From Candidatus Rifleibacterium amylolyticum (lineage in GTDB: Bacteria; Muiribacteriota; Ozemobacteria; Ozemobacterales; Ozemobacteraceae), in the NCBI GenBank assembly GCA_009917695.1, contig JAACJG010000005.1, positions 62,001-126,000 of the forward strand: a stretch of 64,000 nt of DNA. Reading direction: 5' to 3'. The notes under the pieces are model-generated. The model did not search any database. It had not been told where the DNA came from and worked only from the letters and a program-made list of their open reading frames with translations. Numbering within the stretch: position 1 is the stretch's first letter; every line of letters begins with the position of its first letter. The translations under genes were made by a program, and so were the position numbers. Of this stretch, positions 48,494-62,551 are shown piece by piece.

Positions 48494-48539
48494 AACTACA
48501 CAGGAGAAGTGCATTATACTATGAGTAGTGATAAACAAA

Positions 48540-48741
48540 GGGCGTAGGCGGGTTTCTCAAAAGCGTAAGCTTGTGAGCCGAGCACTTTTGACTCAAAGAC
48601 TTCAGCAATCGAGAAGCAGATGAGGCGGTTTGCCAAAGGCAAAGGCCAGCTCTGAGCCAATCCTGAAGCGTTGAGCCCCTAAAGGGATCCGCAGATCTAA
48701 CGACTGAAGCCGTAAGATCTGCCTAATCCCGCCGAGAGCCC
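48540..48741 (+). ncRNA. Foldable intergenic element, copy A
   Basis: The ends pair: GGGC (48540) with GCCC (48738), and GGCGGG (48547) with CCCGCC (48728). After the left strand comes a hairpin CTCAAAAGC-GTAA-GCTTGTGAG with a GNRA-type loop; near the right end is GCAGATCT...AGATCTGC. It ends 64 bp before the ATG of the exported redoxin gene. The same closing layout occurs at 23937, 56201 and 60490. Transcription is not shown; it might instead be a mobile DNA repeat. Confidence 0.45.
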
Positions 48742-48805
48742 GGGTAAGAAATATAGAGTTGGAATAAATTTTTGAATAAGTTAAAAAAAATCAAAGGAGA
48801 CAAAT

Positions 48806-55992: not shown

Positions 55993-56200
55993 TCGCTCCT
56001 GTGTCAGTGTTACCGTGTTGGATTGCTGATTAAACGACATCCTGACAGGGAACAACGCCTCAAATCTGAACTCGTCTCTCACCAACAATCGTACTCAATC
56101 TATATAAAATACAGAAAACATATTAAAATCTAATTAAGCCGAACGCAAGAATTATTGCCAGTAAAAAAAGATTCAGTTACGGGTGGAATAATTATTGTGA
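55993..56200. other. Upstream region of the signalling operon
   Basis: About 200 bp, AT-rich around 56095-56165, which should carry the minus-strand promoter of the four-gene operon. No convincing operator was found. Confidence 0.4.
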
Positions 56201-56374
56201 GTGCGCAGACAGGGATCTCATAAGCGAAAACTTTTGCACAGGGATGTGCTTATGCCGATCTGCGCAGGATAGAGCAACTCGGCCGAGCCTGGCAATATTG
56301 ACGCAAAGCCATAGCTTTACAAATGAGCCTTCGTCCAGGGAGAGTTGTAGCGAATGAGATCCCGCCGAGAGCCC
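56201..56374 (+). ncRNA. Foldable intergenic element, copy B
   Basis: GGGATCTCA (56212) pairs perfectly with TGAGATCCC (56355). Inside are CATAAGC/GCTTATG closing a GCACA-GGGA-TGTGC hairpin, CCTG (56288) with CAGG (56336), GACG (56300) with CGTC (56332), and CAACTC (56275) with GAGTTG (56342). The right part, from GAGAGTTGTAGCGAATGAGAT on, is nearly identical to copy C at 60490. On the minus strand it would lie in the leader of the signalling operon. Strand and transcription are unknown. Confidence 0.45.
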
Positions 56375-56435
56375 GATTTTGAAAGCATTTCTTGTGAAAA
56401 GAGCATGAAAAAACCGGATGATACAATAACGAGCT

Positions 56436-60311: not shown

Positions 60312-60344
60312 GTCATTCTGCGCGAAGCGAAGTCGCAGAATCCA
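60312..60344. repeat. Partial copy of the GTCATTCTG repeat
   Basis: GTCATTCTGCGCGAAGCGAA followed by GTCGCAGAATCCA: the left end of the family found complete at 28652 and 62086. ATTCTGCG and CGCAGAAT pair. Confidence 0.7.
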
Positions 60345-60346
60345 GA

Positions 60347-60421
60347 GATGAAGAGTTATCCGCAGATTTCGCAGATTGATCGAAAGGGTTAAGCAGGCCG
60401 TAGACGACATGACCTGGAGAC
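60347..60421. repeat. Duplicated block, left copy
   Basis: A 75-bp sequence starting GATGAAGAGTTATCCGC and ending GACATGACCTGGAGAC, repeated at 61947-62021 with few differences. The right flank of the downstream copy (GATCGATGAA...TTAAGCTTCGTTTTAG) continues here only after the element at 60421-60670, showing that the element was inserted. Confidence 0.85.
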
Positions 60422-60670
60422 TAGTCCTCTGTCACATTTGAATTATGAGGTAGATTGGTAGAATTCACGCCTGGTGAAAAATCATACAAGGGCGCAGGCG
60501 GGTTTCTCAGGCGCGGAAACTTCGAGCCAGGCAACTTTGACGCATAGCTATAGCTATTAAACAATACTTGCGTCTGGTGAGAGTTGTAGCGAATGAGATT
60601 CCGCCGAAAGCCCGGCAAAAGCAGAGACTCTCAGATTGAATTCTTGAACTCTTATGTGACAGAGGACTAG
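60421..60670. mobile_element. MITE of 250 bp with perfect 17-bp inverted ends
   Basis: Ends CTAGTCCTCTGTCACAT (60421-60437) and ATGTGACAGAGGACTAG (60654-60670) are exact reverse complements. It has no gene. The related duplicated block at 61947-62062 lacks it, so the unoccupied site is visible at 62022-62023. A TA at each end would fit a TA target duplication as in IS630/Tc1-type elements, but the counterpart site reads AA. It carries the foldable element C. No transposase is in the window. Confidence 0.8.
60490..60613 (+). ncRNA. Foldable intergenic element, copy C, inside the MITE
   Basis: GGGC (60490) pairs with GCCC (60610) and GGCGG with CCGCC. Inside: CCA (60527) with TGG (60575), GACGCA (60539) with TGCGTC (60569), a TAGCTATAGCTA hairpin, and CAACT (60532) with AGTTG (60582). 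Against copy B, the third pair of the CC(T/A)G stem changes from T-A to A-T, a compensatory change. The MITE ends lie outside it, and copies A and B lack those ends. Confidence 0.5.
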
Positions 60671-60724
60671 ATCGATGAAGCAGTTAAGCTTCGTTTTAGT
60701 AACGATTACGACAACGATTAGAAG

Positions 60725-61885
60725 ATGGATATGAAGCCGAAGAGTGTATATGTTGCGTTCGATACATACCCGGCGCCAAAGGGGGCGGCGGTGCATATTC
60801 GCGAGTTTGCGCAGACGCTGTTTGCGCACACCGGCAGTGGATTGCTGCTGGTGCTTGGCGAAGAAGGTTTGCCGGCATGGCAGATCGAGGGAACGACCCA
60901 GATAAGGCGCCTGGTATCAGATGAACAGAATTACCTGAAACGGGCGATGCAGTTCGGCGATTTCGTGCAGACACACGCCGAAATGCTGAAAAACGACGTA
61001 AAAATCGCACATTTTCGCGACCCATGGGGCGGAATGCCACTACTCTCTGTCGAAAACCGCGCATACAAAACAGTATACGAAGTCAACGCCCTGCCTTCGA
61101 TCGAACTGCCGGCGCGCTACCCGGCGGTTACCACGAGAACCTGCGAACGGATACGCGAACTCGAGCGCCGATGCTGGCAGCAGGCCGACCACATCGTCTG
61201 CCCGTCGCAGATTATCAAGAATTGTCTGATCGAGCTGGGTGCTGATGCCGGCAAAATTACAGTGATCCGTAATGGCGCGCAACCGGTCGATCTGGCACAG
61301 ATAAGTCGCCCACCCGACGCGCCAGCGCAATACCTGTTATACCAGGGTGCTGTACAAAGCTGGCAGGGCATTGAAGTGTTGTTCAAAGCCATGACCTTTC
61401 TGCGCGACATGCCTGAGCTGAAGCTGGTAATGTGTGCTTCCGGCAGCAAACCGCGCCTCAAATATCTGCAGAAGCTGGCAATCCGTCTAAATATCGACTC
61501 ACAGGTAATCTGGCATCTGAAAGTTCCACAGACAACAGTCATGCAATGGCTGGTCGGAGCGACAATCTCGCTGGCTCCGCTGGTTGAGTGCTCACGCAAT
61601 CTGGTACAGGGCTGCTGCCCTCTCAAAATCGTCGAATCGATGGCGACGGGCACGCCGGTTATCGCTTCTGACCTGCCGGTAGTCCGCGAACTGCTCGAAC
61701 ATGGCAAAACCGGCTGGCTGGTAAGGCCCGACCGACCTTCAGAACTCGCTCGTGCAATACGCATTCTGCTTGCCCACCCCGAACAGCGCGCCAGTATCGG
61801 CGCCAGCGCCAGAGAAAAATTCAGTGCCGAGCTGACCTGGCAAATTTCGACGCGTGCACTTACGACAATCTACCAGGCATTGTAA
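60725..61885 (+). CDS. GT4-type glycosyltransferase
   Basis: A 386-residue GT-B glycosyltransferase. N-terminal half: F-D-T-Y-P-A-P-K-G-A-A-V-H-I-R-E (acceptor side). C-terminal half: V-I-R-N-G, the sugar-nucleotide site V-E-S-M-A-T-G-T-P-V-I-A-S-D-L-P-V-V-R-E with the E-x7-E pattern, and G-W-L-V-R-P-D. Donor and acceptor are unknown; likely surface polysaccharide or glycolipid. The first ATG (60725) follows repeat sequence with a weak AGAAG site. It is bracketed by the duplicated blocks at 60347 and 61947. Confidence 0.85.
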   Translation: MDMKPKSVYVAFDTYPAPKGAAVHIREFAQTLFAHTGSGLLLVLGEEGLPAWQIEGTTQIRRLVSDEQNYLKRAMQFGDFVQTHAEMLKNDVKIAHFRDPWGGMPLLSVENRAYKTVYEVNALPSIELPARYPAVTTRTCERIRELERRCWQQADHIVCPSQIIKNCLIELGADAGKITVIRNGAQPVDLAQISRPPDAPAQYLLYQGAVQSWQGIEVLFKAMTFLRDMPELKLVMCASGSKPRLKYLQKLAIRLNIDSQVIWHLKVPQTTVMQWLVGATISLAPLVECSRNLVQGCCPLKIVESMATGTPVIASDLPVVRELLEHGKTGWLVRPDRPSELARAIRILLAHPEQRASIGASAREKFSAELTWQISTRALTTIYQAL

Positions 61886-62551
61886 GAATTCGCCAAACCA
61901 GCACACCCGTTATACAGCGCGAAGCGAAGCGCAGTCGCAATCTGAAGATGAAGAGTTATCCGCCGATTTCACAGATTGATCGGAAGGGTTAAGCTGTCCT
62001 TAGACGACATGACCTGGAGACAAGATCGATGAAAAGCTGTTAAGCTTCGTTTTAGTTACGATAACGAGCACGAAAAGCACATGGCGTCATTCTGCGCGGA
62101 GCGAAGCGGAGTCGCAGAATCCACGACTTCAACGAATTCTGGATCCTGTGACATCGCGCATGATGACGATTAAGAGAGTGCGGTTAACTCTATAGCCAGT
62201 CTCCCGACTTAGTGTCTCTGCGTCTTTGTGCGAGGATAAATTAAAACGATTGCGAGAACGATTGCGAGAACGATTGAGAGCACGAGCACGATTGTACGGT
62301 TTTGCTATCGCAATCGGCTTCGGGATCGCTATCGAGATTCTCTCCTTCTTCAGAACAAATCTGCGGTCATCGGCGCAATCTGCGGATGCTCTCTTTCTTC
62401 TTCTTCTTCTTCTTCTTTGTTTTTGTTTTTGTTTTTGTGTCTTTGTGTCTTTGTGCGAGGATAAATAAGTGCGATTACGATTACGATTACGACAACGATT
62501 ACGAGAAAAAGAATTTGTGTTATCATGGAACAAACAGACGAGAGGTGAGCT
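61886..62551. repeat. Long repeat-rich intergenic region
   Basis: In order: GCGAAGCGAAGCGCAGTCGCA (61918), the right duplicated block (61947-62062), a full GTCATTCTG repeat (62086-62167), CGATTG/CGAGAA hexamers (62244-62295), an inverted CTGCGG fragment (62360-62392), a CTT run (62397-62420), TTTTTG runs, a second TCTTTGTGCGAGGATAAA (first at 62224), and ACGATT hexamers (62470-62505). No gene; frames of 80-120 codons here arise from the repeats. Confidence 0.65.

Follow-up and report, generated by a model that had tools for sequence, protein, structure and literature searches.

A CTAG-flanked MITE of Candidatus Rifleibacterium amylolyticum carries a structured core that recurs in other transposon shells and as bare copies

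In the analysed window, a stretch of 64,000 nt from the genome of Candidatus Rifleibacterium amylolyticum, two copies of an intergenic block enclose a putative glycosyltransferase-like gene (60725–61885, read by eye), and one of the copies is interrupted by a short insert (Table 1). The terminal inverted repeat of this insert, CTAGTCCTCTGTCACAT, is perfect over 17 bp and extends to 24 bp at 88%; it forms the sole perfect 17-bp inverted pair at a spacing of 40–400 bp in the window, where 0.0013 would be expected, and none arose in 60 mononucleotide shuffles. No ORF of at least 80 aa lies wholly within the insert, and a 90-aa minus-strand ORF (60557–60829) crosses its end. The left flank matches the uninterrupted block over 86 bp at 88% and the right flank over 51 bp at 82%; read through with the insert left out, the filled block is GGAGACTAGATCGATG and the empty one GGAGACAAGATCGATG. 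CTAG flanks the insert on both sides, and the empty copy has one CAAG, one base off a single CTAG. The initial annotation, which had described perfect inverted ends, a gene-free insert and a duplicated flank that elsewhere runs straight through, is borne out in these respects. Its reading of the insert as a miniature inverted-repeat transposable element (MITE) is likewise supported, by how often its ends and its interior recur, by the CTAG at either side and by the presence in the genome of an IS630-family element whose ends are related. With terminal inverted repeats, a length below ~600 bp, no transposase gene, and a target-site duplication with its empty site, the insert is an ordinary MITE, and finding the block filled and empty within one window shows insertion neatly, if in no unusual way. 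Both blocks also contain a short GTCATTCTGCGCGAAGCGAAGTCGCAGAATCCA-type repeat, which recurs at dozens of further sites in the genome (in the window at 60312–60345, 61909–61946 and 62086–62123). After the empty block, at 62209–62505, units resembling (CGATTACGA) and the motif TTCTTC form runs, and simple repeats of this kind seem common in the intergenic DNA of the genome.

Table 1. Features of the MITE locus and of core-family copies in the window
Feature	Position	Strand	Remarks
MITE, 250 bp including CTAG on both sides	60421..60670	+	perfect 17-bp inverted ends; closest near-full genomic copies 94% and 92%
Left terminal inverted repeat	60421..60437	+	first four bases are a CTAG target copy
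Right terminal inverted repeat	60654..60670	-	last four bases are a CTAG target copy
Duplicated block, filled copy, left part	60312..60420	+	
Duplicated block, filled copy, right part	60671..60728	+	
Duplicated block, second copy, uninterrupted	61909..62084	+	
Empty site CAAG	62021..62024	+	
Structured core (element C of the initial annotation), 127 nt, with hypervariable apical stretch	60488..60614	+	28 consensus pairs, 8 compensatory
Core copy with extra 5′ hairpin (ins1)	56199..56375	+	different-type MITE arm precedes at ~56167
Third core-family copy, type B apical domain and extra 3′ hairpin (ins2)	48538..48742	+	

A 331-bp query returned 50 BLAST pieces from the source genome. When the genome was searched for the MITE ends, as the initial annotation had advised, the 16-mer end was found at 103 sites with up to three mismatches (16 of them exact), compared to 48 sites for a reversed-pattern control. 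Among the fetched loci from the source genome and its relatives, 39 pairs of terminal inverted repeats were found, of which five were dropped as spurious, leaving 34 elements. Their fillings differ: 21 contain the core described below, eight a different palindrome (ATTGCGAGCGAAGCGAAGCAATC) and five neither, so that two or more unrelated foldable fillings share one kind of end. The eight elements with the other palindrome and its partner (L049, L051, L052, L056, L065, L068, L020 and L021) have the same CTAG ends and are ~130–170 bp long. A CTAG MITE with the core also occurs in the same intergenic region of the source genome (L029, 915–1370) and of the congener G002 (L161, ~1990–2270), their orthology being unproved; for a second candidate pair at a shared position, L024/L173, the flanking genes are common and the inserts do not align convincingly.

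IS630-family elements insert at TA, preferably at CTAG, and duplicate the TA. CTAG stands on both sides of 16 of the 34 elements, and four identical flanking bases accompany 19. In 33 of 34 elements, the left and right flanks agree in the base before TA (27.6 on average after shuffling, P = 1e-4), G/G and A/A cases included, and in 23 of 34 they agree in the base after it (P = 0.32). The target duplication may therefore be longer than TA, although many of the copies are old. Adjacent elements at times have one CTAG in common (for example, C10:48890/48902), which a CTAG target would predict.

A likely mobiliser of the MITE, judging from related ends, is an IS630-family insertion sequence. Ten contig ends of the source assembly (G000) break within one repeated IS630-type element with related CTAG ends, which indicates that the element was collapsed in the assembly. 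Left-end pieces of 216 bp lie at six of these contig ends (C9, C11, C14, C16, C21 and C23) and right-end pieces of ~125–127 bp at the other four (C1, C10, C19 and C20), all at CTAG where this could be read. The left end starts with CTAGTGGTCTGTCAAAGTTGAA, followed by MGRKKQFVVKLSDSQRKFLKK, and the right end, read backwards, gives TVDWQFSTEDARIKLKSLYP and stops inside the end repeat. With near-identical ends at no fewer than six places, the element has probably been active recently. The IS630 label comes from tblastn of the N- and C-terminal pieces of its transposase: the C-terminal 37 aa are 55–66% identical to annotated IS630 transposases, and the N-terminal piece matches Deinococcus ones weakly, at 53–57% (E 0.07–0.3); Pfam and NCBIfam searches with these two short pieces yielded no credible match. 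The ends CTAGTGGTCTGTCAAA and CTAGTGCTTTGTCAAA resemble the MITE end CTAGTCCTCTGTCACA, with differences at several positions and with intermediate ends in existence; the same kind of end, CTAGTGTTCTGTCAA, is found in an IS630 copy of Pseudanabaena. No full-length transposase gene was found in the source assembly, and the N-terminal piece occurs at six contig ends of this genome and nowhere in 55 relatives. A target of CTAG is by itself not diagnostic of IS630: the available text of PMC3189936 has a MITE that duplicates CTAG or YTAA and assigns it, with a question mark, to IS5.

The interior of the insert contains a core that folds better than its shuffles on both strands (plus z −4.5, minus z −3.2). 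Its structure was derived from the window copy aligned with 26 other copies of the same genome: 98.8% of 754 alignment cells are paired, a value reached in none of 500 shuffles, and pairing drops to at most 46% when the partner is slid. G-U exceeds A-C at 59:1, counted over cells that stem from few pairs and are not independent; this large excess argues that the core is read from one strand. An independent set of 25 copies from relatives has 375 basal cells, of which 98.7% are paired, and three of its pairs have both partners changed. This check refers to the 25 copies only, since a count over all 79 takes in those with the 3′ hairpin, whose pairing register is shifted. The basal stem (AAGGGCG.AGGC.GG ... 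CCGAGAGCCCG) is common across copies. At least three kinds of apical part are seen, and additional hairpins occur at two set positions, one on the 5′ side (ins1) and one on the 3′ side (ins2). Such extra hairpins were seen in L024, L037, L040, L142–L146, L158, L160 and L170, the last of which has a further palindrome nested inside. A protein-coding core was rejected, with stops in at least 23 of 48 copies in every frame.

Under stricter filters, a covariance model search of genomes found 56 copies in the source genome, 34 in G002, five in G005 and four in G001; the 52 further genomes, two of them congeneric, gave no match. The exact pattern of the 3′ end of the core was met in 25 stretches among 84,980 species genomes, all from Ca. 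Riflebacteria (HGW-Riflebacteria-1, GWC2_50_8 and MM_PC_MetaG.mb.182), and a scan of viral contigs for the core end returned none. At the gathering score, Rfam reported no family in the window or in 18 loci; scattered matches far below threshold, obtained for the insert and two other core types at E up to 1 or 5, were judged to be due to chance. The foldable element noted inside the insert by the initial annotation is hence real, while its importance was underrated: it is a structured module found across the genus and also apart from the MITE.

The core is found in different shells. Among 79 cores, the CTAG arms shared by most clustered copies accompany 28 on the left and 33 on the right. A second type of MITE, recognised by its GTAAAGATTCAGT ends, surrounds the same core with nine left arms and seven right ones, and a third group comprises four left arms. 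Copies of the second type include L142, L143, L144, L147, L038, L041 and L042, as well as one at window position 56167. More than 30 copies have no recognisable partner arm on one or both sides, and L157 combines a left arm of the second type with a right arm of the first. A tree of 50 cores, many forks of which are weakly supported, mixes the shell types (14 changes for bare copies, 11 for CTAG shells).

Taken as a whole, these observations are probably explained by a MITE shell mobilised in trans and an RNA-hairpin module kept by selection on its fold. An IS630-family transposase would have acted in trans to cut and paste the MITE into the CTAG of the intergenic block, the MITE being made of two arms that enclose, as a shell, a structured module that existed already. 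Read from one strand, this module would most likely be an RNA hairpin; it would travel in small transposons of at least two kinds, with its fold kept by selection after insertion and the arms and apical loop free to drift.

The contrast between core and arms fits such selection. Ten copies of the window's subtype that lack arms differ by 2.0% in the paired columns and by 44% in a 17-column apical stretch, a contrast inflated to an unknown degree because the copies were found by BLAST with the window's core and judged arm-less by eye, a choice that favours conserved scaffolds (one of them, L023, has a left flank common to three other copies). The flanks of these ten copies differ by 59–62%, as a raw value read without a shuffled yardstick, and variable columns number 4 of 56 among the paired and 15 of 17 among the apical ones (Fisher P = 3e-10). 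Seven copies of the second type differ by 16–18% in their arms and by 0.8–5.8% at the core ends (0.8% over the first 35 nt). The contrast is weaker in CTAG-shell copies (own arms 19–33% versus core 12–14%) and in those of G002 (arms 24–39% versus core 12–16%).

A plain MITE could also be envisaged, in which the core is just the foldable middle, conserved because the copies are young or because its structure aids transposition, and the arm-less copies are decayed MITEs. We regard this as unlikely, although part of the evidence favours it: 10 of the 47 copies outside the set from which a right-arm profile was built match that profile at E < 0.01 (best reversed control 1.2), five of these ten (L018, L021, L026, L035 and L163) are otherwise devoid of CTAG left arms, and G002 copies sit mostly in CTAG shells. 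Decay should, however, strike core and arms alike, while the ten bare copies combine flanks at ~60% and an apical stretch at 44% with paired columns at 2%; moreover, the core also resides in the second shell, the ends of which are unrelated.

Alternatively, the core itself might be the mobile unit, for instance a single-stranded DNA hairpin with its own recombinase, which enters both MITEs and intergenic DNA. Its equally sharp ends in varied surroundings and the crosswise combination of shells in L157 would suit this scenario, which we nevertheless consider improbable on account of locus L030 and of the core ends, where inspection of 24 copies by eye revealed no duplication. At L030, the one bare copy with a clear empty site, three congeners have that empty site in common, and the extra DNA consists of the core plus ~48 nt on each side. 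At least this bare copy thus arrived with arms that are now unrecognisable, the core being intact, which weakens the idea that bare cores were inserted alone and makes L030 the best single argument for selection after insertion.

Comparison with congeners also bears on the direction of the event at the window locus. Orthologues of the glycosyltransferase-like gene were found at 61–75% identity in all five congeners searched, and in G001 (locus L201) and G002 (locus L202) the upstream gene, as judged by eye, still adjoins it, with intergenic DNA that contains neither the duplicated block nor the MITE; block and insert are thus late additions in the source genome. The block has two genomic copies only, the remaining matches to it being short pieces, mostly of another repeat. 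The initial annotation had named deletion as the better explanation should every copy of the block turn out to be filled; one is filled and one is empty. Since congeners with the same gene order are devoid of block and insert, and since the filled copy has two CTAGs, insertion into one block copy, as proposed there, is favoured as the simplest history. That both blocks were once filled and the element was then lost at 62022 is very hard to credit: with a single filled copy, the two blocks by themselves leave the direction unfixed, but precise loss would have required a single target copy to stay behind, an element of this kind is missing from both sides in congeners that have these genes, and similar elements vary in presence between species at other loci. 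The second-type copy L038 of the source genome, for example, is missing at the matching place in G002, which in turn has a CTAG-ended MITE copy where the window (~9544) has none.

Returning to the trans-mobilised MITE with its selected module, the core would be transcribed and would serve either as a transcript-level signal, such as a processing or protein-binding hairpin of the kind proposed for NEMIS of Neisseria, or as a small RNA. A transcript-level hairpin or a small RNA is the most likely function; a strand-specific fold of single-stranded DNA, which would likewise give covariation and a G-T bias, is possible, and a mere by-product of transposition is the reading least able to explain the bare copies. 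The 25 bare copies compared with their neighbouring genes distribute over the four possible arrangements as 9/6/5/5, with no fixed orientation; this mixture makes a fixed leader or terminator role unlikely and speaks against a fixed gene context or a single cis-regulatory role.

More tentatively, though the idea seems to us nearly as likely as not, the cores could represent an undescribed structured-RNA family of Riflebacteria, with ~100 copies in four genomes, that resides in several unrelated MITE shells and stays under purifying selection after the transposon parts decay. In this candidate family, a constant basal stem would be combined with a hypervariable loop and with apical domains that can be exchanged, and side hairpins could be present or absent at two set positions. 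MITEs are usually viewed as empty shells of insertion sequences. If the proposal holds, small transposons would act as a delivery system for non-coding RNA, the same fold occurring in different shells and seemingly outliving them. Since ~100 copies, closely related genomes and unambiguous empty sites are available, comparison alone can test whether MITEs of bacteria give rise to lasting RNA elements.

The bcr1 repeats of Bacillus cereus are likewise dispersed and have a conserved RNA fold with compensating changes; unlike the core, they are stand-alone elements and not MITE-borne modules, and host and sequence differ. The 127-bp enterobacterial consensus ERIC has the same length as the core, which, with length as the sole feature compared, we think is a coincidence. 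A loosely matched literature search combining Riflebacteria with transposon and RNA terms gave no match that names Riflebacteria. MITEs with stable transcripts have been described (in the available text of sources among PMC10969869, PMC2229807, PMC3189936 and PMC5896051). QMITE1 and QMITE2 of Coxiella burnetii likewise reach ~50 copies per strain, and some of their copies are sources of small RNAs; in contrast to the elements described here, the main text of that report, as available, makes no mention of covariation and describes no core common to the families (PMC5896051). RUP of Streptococcus pneumoniae, a MITE thought to be moved by IS630-Spn1, is similar to our insert in being short, in having inverted ends that resemble those of a resident IS630-type element and in its TA-containing target, and differs in its unrelated host and sequence and in that the available text describes no exchangeable conserved core (PMC2229807). 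The Correia/NEMIS elements of Neisseria are also MITEs, and the stem-loop in their transcripts is proposed, in the available part of the same source, to affect neighbouring mRNAs via RNase III (PMC2229807). There, the stem-loop arises from pairing of the two ends of the element, whereas here it is an inner, sharply delimited module that occurs in several shells.
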